51,810 bases of DNA, taken from the NCBI GenBank assembly GCA_001829625.1, contig MIBW01000092.1, positions 5,334 to 57,143 on the forward strand, read 5' to 3'. Below, piece by piece: positions 40,789 through 50,730 of this stretch. This DNA comes from Sulfurimonas sp. GWF2_37_8. GTDB taxonomy: Bacteria; Campylobacterota; Campylobacteria; Campylobacterales; Sulfurimonadaceae. The translations under genes and the position numbers were made by a program. Below the pieces are notes generated by a model. That model was not told the DNA's origin. It ran no database searches and saw only the letters and a program-made list of their open reading frames with translations. The stretch's first letter is position 1. Every line of letters starts with the position of its first letter.

Positions 40789-42072
40789 CTATTTAAATTT
40801 TACCATTAATGTGGTGCAAAATTCATCATTCTTGTAAAACTCTACTCGATAAACTTTTTTAAGTGTGTCAAGTGAAAAACTCTCACTCATATCACTTTGT
40901 TTTAAAAGTATTTCCTCTTCATTGGAAACTCCTTTGGAATAGTATCCAATAACATTCACACGAACTCCATCATTTTTTAATATCTTAAAATCGTCATTTA
41001 CAAAAAAATATGAAGCTTTTTCTACGGAAGTAACATTTCCGTCAATCTCAATCTTGTAAGTATCAGGACATGAGTCTGATAGTTTAAAGTACTGAGGCTT
41101 AAGCTCAGTTAACTTTTTATTTGCTATAAAGATTTCGATTTTCCCTTTTGAATATTCTACTGCTCCCAAAGGACTCGAAAAATTAAAGAGATTGTTAGTC
41201 GATTTTATCGGAATAAAGCTTAAAGAGTTTTTGATATCCTTTAAATTTAGTGAAATATTATTATTTATACTAACAAAACCATATTCCTCAATAATTGTAT
41301 TTATCTCTTTTTCATTCATATCAAATTTTCTTGTAAATTTAATATCCATAATTTTCATGAATTCTTCTATAGCAAGAAGTTGATAAAAAACTTTTTCAGA
41401 TAAAGAAGAGAGATTTTTACTGCTTTCAATTGCAAACGCAGGTTTGTTATTGGTTACAGCAAAGTAAGTTAGTGAAAGTTGCATTGCTTCATCATCAAAC
41501 TTTGTATTAGTATTTCTGACATCAAAACTATGATGTGATTTTAGAAGTTTTTTATTGAGATTTTCTTTTACAAGAGAAGCAATTTCATCAAGATTACCAA
41601 AAGGCTGATTTTCTTTGAGTTTGCATTGATCAATAACGCAGGTTTGTCCCCATGCATTTGGATTGAAGATATTACCTTGTTTTTCTTTTCTATAAAAACC
41701 ATGTCCATCATGAAGATTGAGGATAAGTGAGACTTTTTCTTCTAAAATAATTTTCTTTATCTCTTCTATAGTTTGTTTGTCAGAATCATTCTCTGTTATA
41801 GCAGAAAACTTTCTATTCATATCACCGTAAATACCTCTTGAATTTTGTTGAATACTTTTTTGATTGAGATTTGGAACAATCCATAAATTTTTTGACTCTA
41901 TTTCATAGTGCGTTGCAAGAATAGAAGCTGCAAAATAGCCACCTGGTTCATCACCATGTATTCCACCTATAACAAGTAAAGTAGTATTGAAATCTGCATT
42001 TTCTTTTTTAATAAGTTGAATTTCTCCATACAGCGAAGAGAAATATAATAAAATAAATAAAAAAAACTTCAT
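40789..42072 (-). CDS. M14 zinc DL-carboxypeptidase, Csd4/Pgp1-like
   Basis: Trims peptidoglycan tripeptides to dipeptides, a step that sets helical or curved cell shape in Helicobacter (Csd4) and Campylobacter (Pgp1). A signal peptide (FFLFILLYFSSLYGE) is followed by the M14 domain with HGDE (His39, Glu42), a third ligand in LNLHDGHGF, and the catalytic Glu in FAIESSKNL. C-terminal domains fill out 427 residues. H. pylori Csd4 is known for Gln at the first zinc position; here it is the usual His. The ATG follows the csd6-like stop with no gap. Confidence 0.88.
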   Translation of the reverse strand: MKFFLFILLYFSSLYGEIQLIKKENADFNTTLLVIGGIHGDEPGGYFAASILATHYEIESKNLWIVPNLNQKSIQQNSRGIYGDMNRKFSAITENDSDKQTIEEIKKIILEEKVSLILNLHDGHGFYRKEKQGNIFNPNAWGQTCVIDQCKLKENQPFGNLDEIASLVKENLNKKLLKSHHSFDVRNTNTKFDDEAMQLSLTYFAVTNNKPAFAIESSKNLSSLSEKVFYQLLAIEEFMKIMDIKFTRKFDMNEKEINTIIEEYGFVSINNNISLNLKDIKNSLSFIPIKSTNNLFNFSSPLGAVEYSKGKIEIFIANKKLTELKPQYFKLSDSCPDTYKIEIDGNVTSVEKASYFFVNDDFKILKNDGVRVNVIGYYSKGVSNEEEILLKQSDMSESFSLDTLKKVYRVEFYKNDEFCTTLMVKFK

Positions 42073-43068
42073 TTAGCGTTCTGTGAAAATTTTCATTTTT
42101 TTGTCTTCTAATTTTATCATGAGAGTTTTATCACCAGTAAATCTAAAAGTATCCGATCTATACATTTCTTTGAATGTTATTTTGAAAACATTTGTCAAAT
42201 TTGGATAAGGAACAATACTTATATTTTGAAAAATAATCGTTTTTTTCTCACTTTTTTGGAAAACCCTTGTTTTAAATCTTTTAAATTCTGGATATTTCAT
42301 GCCATCATCTCTAACAAAATCAGGAGTATAAAAATCAAGATAAGTATCTGTGTCGCTGTAAAGCCAAGCATATCTCCATTTGAATAATTCAGATAAAAGT
42401 AAAGAGAGAGTCTCTTTGGATGAAATTTTTGGTGTTGTCTGTTCGTCAATGATTAAAAGGGTCTCTTTATAATTGATTTTCCCCTCCAAACATTCTATAT
42501 TTTCATTTTCTATAGCAATACAACCTTTGGTGTATGTATCTCTTGTTTGTTCTGTTGGTAAACCATGAATCCAAATACCATGACCATTTTTTCCCTGAAA
42601 TCTGTCATAGATATTTGGGTACGAAGTCACAAAAGCAAGAGGACCATAAAAAGAGTCAAGATTTTTGTCTTTTGAGAGTTTATCTATAATACGATAGATA
42701 CCTATAGGCGTTTTTAAATCTCCTTCTTCTGCCTTGTCTCCATTATTTTTTCCTGTATAAGCACTATGTTCTTTGACAAATTCATATTTATTCTCCTTGT
42801 TTTTTACATATAAAGAGAGTGTCGATTTGTTTTTGTCACAGTAAAGAATACTACTATACTCTTCAGTAAAACCAAATTTTGTATCCTTATCTTTGATATA
42901 TTCACTCCAATAAGATTCTCTAGTGAGTTCTTCATCCATTATTTTGGCAATATTGTCTATACCATTTATTCGATAATTATCTAAAGATTCATTCGCAAAA
43001 AGCAAAACATTTGTAAAAATAATAATCATAGCTGTTTTAAATAGTTTATTAACATTATGCTTTGTCAT
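42073..43068 (-). CDS. L,D-carboxypeptidase/YkuD protein, Csd6/Pgp2-like
   Basis: Trims tetrapeptides to tripeptides on peptidoglycan, in series with the neighbouring Csd4-like enzyme. A signal peptide (AMIIIFTNVLLFANES) leads to a YkuD domain with the active-site pattern GIWIHGLP and TKGCIAI (His and Cys). The C-terminal region (about 225-331) has the NTF2-like layout of Csd6, with WRYAWLYSDTDTYLDFY. Length 331 is as in Csd6. The start overlaps the era end by 14 bases. The order era-csd6 is the same as in H. pylori. Confidence 0.9.
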   Translation of the reverse strand: MTKHNVNKLFKTAMIIIFTNVLLFANESLDNYRINGIDNIAKIMDEELTRESYWSEYIKDKDTKFGFTEEYSSILYCDKNKSTLSLYVKNKENKYEFVKEHSAYTGKNNGDKAEEGDLKTPIGIYRIIDKLSKDKNLDSFYGPLAFVTSYPNIYDRFQGKNGHGIWIHGLPTEQTRDTYTKGCIAIENENIECLEGKINYKETLLIIDEQTTPKISSKETLSLLLSELFKWRYAWLYSDTDTYLDFYTPDFVRDDGMKYPEFKRFKTRVFQKSEKKTIIFQNISIVPYPNLTNVFKITFKEMYRSDTFRFTGDKTLMIKLEDKKMKIFTER

Positions 43069-45866: not shown

Positions 45867-46313
45867 TTATTCGCCTTGGATATCCACATGAAGTGTTGCA
45901 TGAATACCATGACCGAGTTTGAGGTCTAGCTCATGTTCACCAACTGTTTTGATAGCAACTTTGTCAATGATGTGTTTTTTATCTATTTCAATACTATGTT
46001 GTTCGAGGAGTGCATGAGCCACTTCATCTTTTGTGATTGAACCAAAAAGATGGCCGTTATCACCGAGTGGTTTTGTAATGATTATTTCCGCTTTATCCAG
46101 CTTCATTGCAAGGGCTTTTAGTGTTGTTATCTCATCTGCCAAATCTTTTGCTTTTTGTGCCTCATCGGCAGCATGTTGTGTTAATATCTCCGTTGTTGCA
46201 TGTTTTGCAAAACCTTTAGCTATAAGAAAATTTTTGCCATATCCGTCCTTTACCTCTTTAACTTCGCCAATTTTCCCTAAACTTTTTACATCTTTTATAA
46301 GTAGTACTTTCAA
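45867..46313 (-). CDS. rplI: 50S ribosomal protein L9
   Basis: L9 binds 23S rRNA. The N-terminal domain starts [21 protein letters not shown] (given by its first residues) and continues with [16 protein letters not shown]. The C-terminal domain has [14 protein letters not shown]. Length 148. The start is TTG at 46313 preceded by AAGGAAT. Its stop is two bases from hslV. Confidence 0.96.
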
Positions 46314-46350: not shown

Positions 46351-47088
46351 TTATCTCTCTTTTGGTCCGCCATAAGAGACAATACCGTGCGTTAAGTTTC
46401 CGATTTTTGTGTAGCCCATATCACCTAAAATTCTTGCACAGTGTGCAGAACGACTGCCTACATGACAATAAAGAATGATATTTTCATTTTTATCCAGTTT
46501 TGCTTCATCTAAAGTTTGGAAGAAACTGCTTGTAGGAACAAGGGCATCTGCTCCAGTAATATGACCCATCATCCACTCCATATGCTCACGAACATCGACG
46601 ATTTTAAAGTCAACCATACCGAGATCACGGGCTTCGATAAGTGCGATAAGTTCATCGCCATCGATTTCTCTTTGGTTTACAAGAACTTGACACTCTTCTT
46701 TGGTAAGACCACGTGAATGTGTATGAACTACCTCTTCCATACCGAGTTCGATGCGTTTTGCAGCTGCAAACGCAGGAGTACAAAAGATTTGGCAGTGGCA
46801 AACACCTTCTTCTGGTATCTCATGTTCAAGGGCAGGTTTACAAGGACAGATTCTATCTTCAACACTTCTTGGTTTGTCATCTACCACTTCAACCATAAAA
46901 CAAGGACAAAAACGCTTGTTGTACATCATTTTGTTTCTGGCAAGACCCATCTGGACACCCTCATTTATCTCTGCTTGAGGGTTGTATTCCCAGTTAAATT
47001 GTTTTACCACTTTATCTGTAAACTTAATAGTTTTTTCCATTTCAGCTTGAAATTCCGGAGAGATCATGTCAATTTTGATAATGCTCAT
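46351..47088 (-). CDS. Ferredoxin-thioredoxin reductase catalytic domain fused to rhodanese
   Basis: Two domains in one 245-residue protein. Residues about 10-120 carry CPC (61-63), CPC (81-83) and CHC (97-99), the cysteine pattern of the [4Fe-4S] and disulfide site of FTR catalytic subunits, with wider spacing than plant FTR; an extra Cys is at 103. Residues about 140-245 form a rhodanese domain with the active-site loop CHVGSRS (Cys208). It could pass reducing power or sulfane sulfur to a partner. RBS AAAAGGAT precedes the ATG. It lies 12 bases after argG and before rplI. No variable FTR subunit is near, so it need not be a plant-type FTR. Confidence 0.85.
   Translation of the reverse strand: MSIIKIDMISPEFQAEMEKTIKFTDKVVKQFNWEYNPQAEINEGVQMGLARNKMMYNKRFCPCFMVEVVDDKPRSVEDRICPCKPALEHEIPEEGVCHCQIFCTPAFAAAKRIELGMEEVVHTHSRGLTKEECQVLVNQREIDGDELIALIEARDLGMVDFKIVDVREHMEWMMGHITGADALVPTSSFFQTLDEAKLDKNENIILYCHVGSRSAHCARILGDMGYTKIGNLTHGIVSYGGPKER
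46752..46774. repeat. Inverted pair of the TGCGTTT word
   Basis: TGCGTTT (46752-46758) and AAACGCA (46768-46774) face each other around a nine-base TGCAGCTGC core, all within the FTR-rhodanese gene. The whole stretch is nearly palindromic. Confidence 0.6.
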
Positions 47089-47100
47089 TTTGTATCCTTT

Positions 47101-48345
47101 TTATTTATTTAAGTGATTTCTTTTTTTACCGGCAATAATTCTTCTAAGCGCATTGAGTCTAATAAAACCTTCCGCATCTTTTTGATTGTAAACTTCATCT
47201 TCTTCAAATGTCGAGTGTGCTTCAGAATATAAGGACATATCTGACTCACGACCTACAACTTCTACATTTCCTTTATAGAGTTTGAGTTTTACAGTTCCTT
47301 GGACATATTTTTGTGTAATGTCAATGGCTGCCTGCATCATCTCTCGCTCAGGAGTAAACCAGAAACCATTGTAGATAAGTTCTGCATATTTTGCAATCAT
47401 GCCGTCTTTCATATGCGCTTCTTCACGGTCTAAACAAATAGATTCTATAGCGCGGTGTGCTTTAAGCATGATAGTTCCACCTGGTGTCTCATAACATCCG
47501 CGTGCTTTCATACCGACAAAACGATTTTCAACGATATCAACACGCCCGATACCGTGTTTGTTACCATACTCATTTAATGTTCTCAAAAGAGTAGCAGGAG
47601 ACATCTCCGTGCCATTTACAGAGATAGGGTCGCCATTTTTATAGCCGATAGTAATGTACTCTTTTTCATCAGGAGCATTCTCTGGAGAATTTGTCCACAA
47701 CCACATAGACTCTTCGGGTTCATTCATTGGGTTTTCTAAGTGAAGTCCTTCATAAGAGATATGAAGAAGGTTCGCATCCATTGAGTAAGGGCTTACAGTA
47801 GGATTTCCATTCGCATCCAAATGCTTTTGGTCTATTTTAATTCCATGCTCTCTCGCATACGCTAAAAGTTTTTCTCTTGAGTTTAAGTTCCACTCTCTCC
47901 AAGGAGCAATAACAGTAATGTCAGGGTTGAGACCTAGATAACCAAGCTCAAATCTTACCTGGTCATTTCCTTTTCCTGTAGCTCCGTGACTTACAGCATC
48001 TGCACCCATCTTCGTCGCAATCTCAATTTGTTTTTTGGCGATAAGAGGTCTTGCGATAGATGTTCCAAGAAGGTACTCACCCTCATAAATAGCATTTGCT
48101 CTAAACATAGGAAAAACATACTCTTTTACAAACTCTTCTTGTACATCAAGAATAAAAATATTTTCAGGTTTAATGCCGTTGTCAAGTGCCTTTTGGCGTG
48201 CCGGCTCAACATCTTCACCTTGTCCTAAATCCGCTGTAAAGGTAATAACTTCAGCTTTGTACTCATCTTGTAGCCACTTCAAAATAACACTTGTATCAAG
48301 TCCGCCTGAATATGCTAAAACTACTTTTTTGACTTCTTTTTTCAT
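47101..48345 (-). CDS. argG: Argininosuccinate synthase
   Basis: Joins citrulline and aspartate using ATP in arginine synthesis. [10 protein letters not shown] spans 11-20, and [30 protein letters not shown] and [12 protein letters not shown] are all present. Length 414 is normal. Its own promoter has a -10 at 48386-48381. The following genes are unrelated in function, so co-transcription is by position only. Confidence 0.96.
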
Positions 48346-49011: not shown

Positions 49012-50217
49012 ATGAAAACCTACAGAAAACTTCTTGCAAACGAACCTTTACTCAAAAGACTCTCTGGCATACAACTCATCGTTTATTTTGGCGCATGGTT
49101 TTCCAATGTTGCAATTTATACACTTCTTTTAAGTATGCATGTTTCAGCAGAAATCGTTGCGTTTACTGCGATGATTCATTTTGCTTCGGGGATTATTCAA
49201 GCGCCTTTTTCTGGGAGTATTATCGATAAAGTACAACCAAAAAAGTTGATGCTATGGTTGATTTTTTTGGAGATGAGTACAACTTTTTTCCTTGTTTTTA
49301 TTACAGAGCTCGCGGATTTGTGGTTGCTTTATATCCTTATCTTTATCAAGATGGCAGCAGCAAGTTTTTATTTTACAAGTGAGATGTCATTGCTTCCAAA
49401 AATACTGAGTGCTTCAAATCTACAAAAAGCAAACGAACTGCACTCTATCATCTGGTCACTTTCATATACGCTAGGTATGGCAGTGAGCGGGTTTGTTGTT
49501 TATATACTTGGAGTGAAGATGGCGTTTATCCTTGATGGATTTATTCTCATGGCTGCGTTTTTTCTTTTTTATCGCATCGATATCCGAGTTGAACTCGAAG
49601 AAACGCAAGAAAATCTTTTAGTGATGATGCAAGATACTTTTACCTATCTCAAAAAATATCCTCATGCGATGCATCTGATGTTTTTGCATGCTTTTGTCGG
49701 TTTGACTGCGTTTGATGCGCTTGTAGCTTTGATGGTGGATGCGTACTACGCAAGCATCATAGCCACGTCACTTGCATTGGGTTTACTGCATGCTAGTCGA
49801 GCTATCGGTCTGGTTATCGGACCTGTTCTCATGCGAGATTGGGTAAACAATAAACGACTTGTTTATATTTTTATTGCGCAGGCTTTGGCTATTTGGCTTT
49901 GGGCGTATGTGATGCAAAATTTTTACCTCTCCATAGTTGCAAGTGTTGTTGTGGGTTTTTTTACGACAACACTCTGGTCTTATACTTATACACTTTTACA
50001 AAAAAATATCGATAAAAAATATTATGGTCGTATAGTCGCGTATAACGATATGCTTTTTCTCTCTATTGCTGCGTTTACATCCTATATGATAGGGTATCTT
50101 GCGACACTCACATATTCTTTGGGGTTTATCACTTTTCTTATTGGTCTAGGTTTTGCTTTTGGCGGAATCTATTATCGCTGGATATACAAAACGCAGAAAA
50201 TAGGTGATGTGCAATGA
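49012..50217 (+). CDS. Major facilitator superfamily transporter
   Basis: A 401-residue membrane protein with about 11-12 hydrophobic segments. The N-terminal half has the loop SGSIIDKVQPKKLML, resembling the MFS motif A (GxxxDrxGrrk). This pattern is common in the EntS-like (MFS_3) exporters; substrate unknown. A TGCGTTT word ends right at the start codon, and no good ribosome site is visible. It overlaps the next small gene by four bases and shares no strand with flaG. Confidence 0.85.
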   Translation: MKTYRKLLANEPLLKRLSGIQLIVYFGAWFSNVAIYTLLLSMHVSAEIVAFTAMIHFASGIIQAPFSGSIIDKVQPKKLMLWLIFLEMSTTFFLVFITELADLWLLYILIFIKMAAASFYFTSEMSLLPKILSASNLQKANELHSIIWSLSYTLGMAVSGFVVYILGVKMAFILDGFILMAAFFLFYRIDIRVELEETQENLLVMMQDTFTYLKKYPHAMHLMFLHAFVGLTAFDALVALMVDAYYASIIATSLALGLLHASRAIGLVIGPVLMRDWVNNKRLVYIFIAQALAIWLWAYVMQNFYLSIVASVVVGFFTTTLWSYTYTLLQKNIDKKYYGRIVAYNDMLFLSIAAFTSYMIGYLATLTYSLGFITFLIGLGFAFGGIYYRWIYKTQKIGDVQ

Positions 50218-50468
50218 TGACTTTTGCAGTTCTTGGCGGATTTCTTCTCAATGTCGGTGCGTTTTTAACTTACAAAGGCAAGATTTATCAAGCAGTTATC
50301 GTCTATCTTTTTGCTGATATCTGTTGGATAGTCATGGCATATGAAAGAGATGACTATATAGGTTCATTTTTTATTATCACAGGAACTACTTTTGGTTTTT
50401 TGACCTATTTGAAGATGCAGCGTGGTGAGATGAATAAAAGCCTCAATAAGGAAAAAAATGATTTATAA
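50214..50468 (+). CDS. Small membrane protein
   Basis: An 84-residue protein with about three hydrophobic segments (FAVLGGFLLNVGAFLTY, AVIVYLFADICWIVMAY, FFIITGTTFGFLTYL) and a charged tail. No family is recognised. It is translationally coupled to the transporter (ATGATGA overlap) and overlaps the next gene by 11 bases. It may assist or modulate the transporter; this is inference. Confidence 0.7.
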   Translation: MMTFAVLGGFLLNVGAFLTYKGKIYQAVIVYLFADICWIVMAYERDDYIGSFFIITGTTFGFLTYLKMQRGEMNKSLNKEKNDL

Positions 50469-50730
50469 CTCAAGCATAGGTGCAATAAAACTCTCAAATC
50501 TTACAAGACTCTATCCTGCAGTTGTGGTCGATATGCATGGTGAAGTGGCGGAGATGAGCTTGGAATGGGCTGATTTGTATGGTGAAAAAGTGAAACTCTT
50601 ACGCTATATCCTTGTCTTTGACTACACCCAGCCCGCTGAGGATGTAAAAAACAAAAAAGTTTTGGAGTTTGAAACAAAAGAAGAACTCATCGTGATTATG
50701 CAAGAGGTAGCACAATTTTTTCAAGAGTGA
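50458..50730 (+). CDS. Unknown small soluble protein
   Basis: A 90-residue acidic protein without membrane segments, containing VVVDMHGEVAEMSLEW and ending EELIVIMQEVAQFFQE. No domain recognised. It closes the three-gene group begun by the transporter. An AAGGAAAA ribosome site lies within the previous gene. Confidence 0.7.
   Translation: MIYNSSIGAIKLSNLTRLYPAVVVDMHGEVAEMSLEWADLYGEKVKLLRYILVFDYTQPAEDVKNKKVLEFETKEELIVIMQEVAQFFQE

Follow-up and report, generated by a model that had tools for sequence, protein, structure and literature searches.

We found that the window, a 51,810-nucleotide stretch of a Sulfurimonas sp. GWF2_37_8 contig, encodes a protein in which the catalytic domain of ferredoxin-thioredoxin reductase (FTR) is joined to a C-terminal rhodanese domain. 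We propose that this fusion works as a stand-alone [4Fe-4S] reductase that depends on ferredoxin and acts on bound sulfane sulfur, that is, as a persulfide reductase built like Npsr, and we give this reading a probability of roughly 0.42. Both domains lie in one ORF (Table 1), as a preliminary description of the sequence had stated: the matches to Pfam families FeThRed_B (PF02943; 105.5 bits, cut-off 22, E = 1.9e-30) and Rhodanese (PF00581; 53.6 bits against a cut-off of 22.2, E = 3.3e-14) were both strong, the folds agree, and every predicted active cysteine is present in both domains. A ribosome-binding-like AAAGGA is found 6 nt 5' of the ATG of the gene.

Table 1. Location of the fusion gene, its domains and adjoining genes in the window, and of a second type of FTR fusion in other genomes.
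Feature	Coordinates	Strand	Basis or remark
FTR-rhodanese fusion gene, 245 aa	46351..47088	-	ORF and Pfam; relative L032 96% identical
FTR catalytic domain, Pfam residues 16-122	46723..47043	-	Pfam, alignment with plant FTR
Linker, residues 123-149	46642..46722	-	conserved H124, S125, G127, L128
Rhodanese domain, residues 150-239, loop C208-H-V-G-S-R-S	46372..46641	-	Pfam
argG (argininosuccinate synthase)	47101..48345	-	12 bp upstream of fusion gene, same strand
rplI (ribosomal protein L9)	45867..46313	-	37 bp downstream of fusion gene; then hslV, hslU, era
FTR-TusA-like fusions	L145:4197-4871, L147:4475-5095, L148:4238-4882(-), L160-L162		

The FTR half contains a CPC motif at residue 61, a second CPC at 81 and a CHC at 97, and the rhodanese loop CHVGSRS begins at residue 208, all intact as previously described. 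From the alignment with plant FTR, C61, C81, C83 and C97 are predicted to be cluster ligands, roles which we take to be those of the plant enzyme, and C63 and C99 to form the redox pair. Nine residues (C61, C63, C81, C83, C97, H98, C99, C103 and C208) are invariant across 48 fused proteins, and of 114 distinct FTR domains in fused proteins, 113 have a readable motif. The spacers between motifs are 17 and 13 residues long, compared with 16 and 8 in the aligned plant chain 7bzk, so the wider spacing noted earlier lies almost wholly in the second spacer, which is 12-13 residues in all 137 motif-matching domains among the 139 distinct FTR domains at the loci we collected. The residue four positions after the last motif cysteine, Cys103 in this protein, is Leu in plant chains; of the 113 readable fused domains, 111 have Cys there and 2 have Val, and Cys is found in 13 of 16 lone FTRs (the other three, of the TusA-like type described below, have Gly), in all four split FTRs and in four of five tandem FTRs, the fifth of which gave no motif match.

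When modelled alone (pLDDT 92.7, pTM 0.85), the FTR half matched ten FTR entries at Z-scores of 9.5-11.2, the next and unrelated structure scoring 3.3. The catalytic chains of plant and cyanobacterial FTR (1dj7, 2pu9 and 7bzk) have the same fold (Z 10.2-11.2) and the same six motif cysteines and histidine, but the fusion differs from them in its longer second spacer, its attached rhodanese and its lack of a variable subunit. No match to the variable subunit (PF02941) was obtained in any of 200 sampled Campylobacterota genomes, including the 82.7% complete genome to which the window belongs, in a search in which Synechococcus alone among the control genomes gave a match. The earlier observation that no variable subunit is encoded nearby thus extends to the phylum sample, and it indicates that this is a stand-alone kind of FTR like 4tpu and 7pwe. 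The best NCBIfam match of the FTR half was to the FtrB family double-selenoprotein NF041072 (E = 1e-15; 57.6 bits, short of the cut-off of 160); where that family has selenocysteines, this protein has cysteines, and a selenoprotein is ruled out as the ORF has no in-frame stop.

The structures 4tpu (Methanosarcina acetivorans) and 7pwe (Desulfotalea psychrophila) are stand-alone ferredoxin disulfide reductases carrying an FTR domain; in the PDB, 7pwe is titled a glutaredoxin fusion and the 4tpu molecule is named rubredoxin. The fusion shares with them the FTR catalytic fold, three CxC motifs, an extra small domain in the chain and a second spacer of about 12-13 residues, and is set apart by its C-terminal rhodanese, the histidine of its CHC, the additional Cys103 and an identity of 21-22% over the aligned fold. 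Because the FTR domain of 4tpu and 7pwe sits in disulfide reductases, this kinship favors an alternative in which the fusion would be a conventional disulfide reductase that uses ferredoxin to reduce thioredoxin or a target protein, and the rhodanese would serve for docking or regulation. Disulfide reduction is the reaction of the FTR relatives that have been characterised, and this alternative also draws on genes found beside FTR genes elsewhere: lone FTRs occur near nrdB, and dsbD lies ahead of the fusion gene, directly at locus L113 and separated from it by a small ORF at L117. However, the rhodanese loop reads CxxGSRS in all 115 distinct fused proteins, and a catalytic cysteine kept so strictly would be superfluous in a mere docking domain; a separate thioredoxin reductase in nearly all genomes (see below) also speaks against it. 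We regard this alternative as somewhat unlikely.

The rhodanese half matched many rhodanese structures (top Z 17.2, with an rmsd of 1.3 over 98 residues), and Npsr chains are among its structural neighbors. It also resembles models of the MoeZ/MoeB and PspE types, with scores below their cut-offs. The whole-protein AlphaFold model had a pLDDT of 91.9 and a pTM of 0.56, with a low-confidence stretch near residues 121-130; each domain is certain, and the model does not fix how they are oriented, so it lends no support to Cys208 reaching Cys63/Cys99.

A survey of fused versus separate domains, as proposed in the preliminary description, identified the intact fusion in 87 of 298 Campylobacterota genomes. 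This number comprises 85 from the scripted intersection of the two domain searches, which gave FTR matches (PF02943) in 101 genomes and rhodanese-half matches in 110, plus G122 and G004, in which the two matches overlap slightly within a single frame. In a separate scan of named genomes, 456 relatives were confirmed, and the best 80 of the 456, from records titled Sulfurimonas, Sulfuricurvum, Helicobacteraceae, Sulfurimonadaceae, Campylobacterales, Epsilonproteobacteria or plain "bacterium", all encode the fusion. An assembly error, the objection raised at the outset, is therefore ruled out as its source. Compared with eight relatives, the whole gene had a dN/dS of 0.028-0.084 (no ratio was obtained where dS was saturated), with constraint on both halves, and together with the recurrence among genomes this demonstrates that the fusion did not arise by chance. 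In one genome (G039, L134:4679-5393) the fusion gene is broken by a frameshift, and relatives have intact copies.

Counted by hand and by family, FTR is present in 100 of the 108 genomes that do not belong to families f2 and f3, which presumably are the Helicobacter and Campylobacter groups, mostly host-associated, and in only one of the 190 inside them (G167), where a lone FTR occupies the same rplI-hslV-hslU slot. The joined gene, kept across many related free-living bacteria, is real and old. A viral or plasmid gene is not supported: no relative was confirmed on viral contigs, and among 11 plasmid records only that of Sulfurovum mangrovi has both domains. Our literature searches, which left most subscription papers out of reach, found no paper on an FTR-rhodanese fusion; this stand-alone FTR with a fused partner is apparently undescribed in the searchable literature. 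A 2013 Planta paper, reportedly on FTR in deeply rooted bacteria, may mention this fusion.

The two domains are also encoded by neighboring genes. In seven genomes (G204, G219, G221, G224, G225, G264 and G284) an FTR gene is immediately followed on the same strand by a separate rhodanese gene, with 23-130 bp between the two domain matches, and four of these genomes (G219, G221, G225 and G264) have the fusion as well. The split pair on the S. mangrovi plasmid (L152) is annotated as a "ferredoxin-thioredoxin reductase catalytic domain-containing protein" and a "rhodanese-like domain-containing protein". The existence of fused and split neighboring versions is a good, independent sign that the domains work together and, with the conservation of the fusion, makes the link between FTR and sulfane sulfur suggested earlier plausible. 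A poorly supported tree of 74 of the 139 distinct FTR domains (the 65 left out are four in five of loci L032-L111, plus short domains) implies three changes between fused and unfused states by parsimony. At L132:4223-5288, L133 and L135:2726-3783, a lone FTR gene lies immediately 5' of an FTR-rhodanese gene, with a 4 bp overlap at L135, and this lone FTR is possibly a partner subunit. A second fusion, in 4 of the 298 genomes (Table 1), joins FTR to a C-terminal domain that is weakly TusA-like: two of three tested matched PF01206 at E = 0.0018 and 0.12, the third had no match, and all were under the cut-off. Its sole PDB profile match was a UPF0033 protein (E = 0.056), and the domain does not have the cysteine expected in a TusA motif.

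The gene order around the fusion in the window (argG, rplI, hslVU and era) is one of housekeeping, not sulfur metabolism. Among the best 80 of the 456 loci, argG is upstream of the fusion in all 80 (in L054 the start of the argG match is further off), and the whole order argG, fusion, rplI, hslV, hslU, era is found in 65, several of the other 15 ending at a contig edge; argG and the fusion gene are probably on one transcript. Two other features of the window were observed: an M99 carboxypeptidase (helical cell shape) adjoins YkuD/Cds6_C proteins at 40789-43068 in an arrangement resembling the cell-shape genes of helical relatives, and two short overlapping ORFs with no Pfam match lie downstream of an MFS transporter at 50214-50730. 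PADLOC gave no match that would point to a defence role.

Beyond the family of the window, the neighbors of FTR genes vary across 40 stretches from other genomes, in which genes were mostly named by eye and some proteins checked by profile. The particular contexts are single or paired cases, among them the nrdB and dsbD neighbors mentioned above and a lone FTR with a Sulf_transp gene three genes downstream (L137). In L131:1460-4916 (G134), the fusion gene lies immediately behind genes for 2-oxoacid:ferredoxin oxidoreductase subunits, and that enzyme might supply electrons. These surroundings also bear on a self-resetting sulfurtransferase, which would pass rhodanese sulfur to a biosynthetic acceptor (in tRNA thiolation, or cofactor or cluster assembly) and use FTR to reduce the leftover disulfide. 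ThiI is a precedent for such an enzyme, and the likeness to MoeZ/MoeB and PspE models and the housekeeping gene order agree with it. However, we recognized by eye no recurrent thiolation or cofactor-synthesis neighbor in the 40 stretches, moaE/moeA-like genes being nearby in L115 alone, and we consider this alternative unlikely.

The preliminary description placed the fusion in the context of sulfur oxidation, and this was not borne out. SoxB was found in 54 of the 298 genomes (53 over the cut-off plus a truncated SoxB in G199, not counting 26 weaker matches below it); all 54 have FTR and 47 have the fusion. In turn, 40 of the 87 fusion genomes have no SoxB, including that of the window (82.7% complete) and its close relative G239, so a part in Sox oxidation is not supported. 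Similarly, ATP-citrate lyase is strongly matched in 76 genomes (5 weak matches excluded), 73 of which have FTR, yet 26 fusion genomes have no strong match, which argues against a tie to the reductive TCA cycle. As both correlations follow family lines and are confounded by ancestry, they are no proof of function. Thioredoxin reductase (TIGR01292) was matched at E < 1e-70 in 296 of 298 genomes, and the fusion is therefore not needed there as the sole thioredoxin reductase. We reject that as its general role; the two exceptions, G256 and G273, are near-complete genomes that have the fusion and only weak TIGR01292 matches (3.7e-24 and 1.8e-15).

These distributions are relevant to a further alternative, in which the fusion protects against persulfide or redox stress by stripping persulfides off proteins or small thiols when sulfide meets oxygen, with no role in energy metabolism. 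That 12 fusion genomes lack both SoxB and a strong match to ATP-citrate lyase shows that the gene is not bound to one energy pathway, and the absence of FTR from 189 of the 190 f2 and f3 genomes also favors this alternative. However, we recognized no oxidant-defence neighbor, and the chemistry overlaps that of a persulfide reductase; we judge protection as the role to be quite improbable.

We favor a ferredoxin-dependent persulfide reductase because Npsr is the nearest working parallel of a disulfide reductase with a C-terminal rhodanese. In Npsr, sulfur is first accepted at a surface cysteine of the rhodanese, and the enzyme reduces persulfides to H2S (PMC7969121). Npsr (3nta, 6pfz) and CoADR-RHD (3ict) share with the fusion a layout in which a disulfide reductase precedes a C-terminal rhodanese that has an active cysteine. 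Their reductase half, however, is an FAD/CoA enzyme, whereas by Pfam and fold ours is an FTR domain alone, and the donor is NADH in Npsr and, in our proposal, ferredoxin. The fusion may thus work like Npsr, yet it is not a member of the Npsr/CoADR-RHD group. Beyond the domain assignment, we infer a cluster, a ferredoxin donor, a sulfur path and a product as follows. Rhodanese Cys208 would accept sulfur from persulfide, polysulfide or thiosulfate; the dithiol of the FTR half (Cys63/Cys99, possibly together with Cys103) would attack the Cys208 persulfide, releasing H2S and leaving a disulfide on FTR; and the cluster would re-reduce this disulfide as ferredoxin supplies one electron at a time. 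The fusion probably reduces bound sulfur, and the direction of sulfur flow is our proposal, as it cannot be read from the sequence. Counting against a persulfide reductase, the seven further rhodanese domain matches in the same genome could serve sulfur uptake, and the gene order is housekeeping in the window and varied elsewhere.

A broader and more doubtful possibility is that the fusion is a new type of enzyme, an iron-sulfur, ferredoxin-driven and flavin-free counterpart of Npsr that is old in free-living Campylobacterota, in which the rhodanese would give sulfane sulfur to a cluster-reduced FTR site with Cys103 as a third conserved cysteine. If so, the fusion of FTR to a weakly TusA-like domain would be a parallel solution. 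To our knowledge, sulfane-sulfur reduction of this sort is so far known only from Npsr-type flavin enzymes. If the proposed mechanism is correct, low-potential ferredoxin would directly feed sulfane-sulfur reduction through the FTR cluster in bacteria that are common in sulfidic habitats, and the role of FTR would be widened from thioredoxin control to sulfur handling. Related species, in which FTR occurs fused, split or alone, provide ready-made comparisons.
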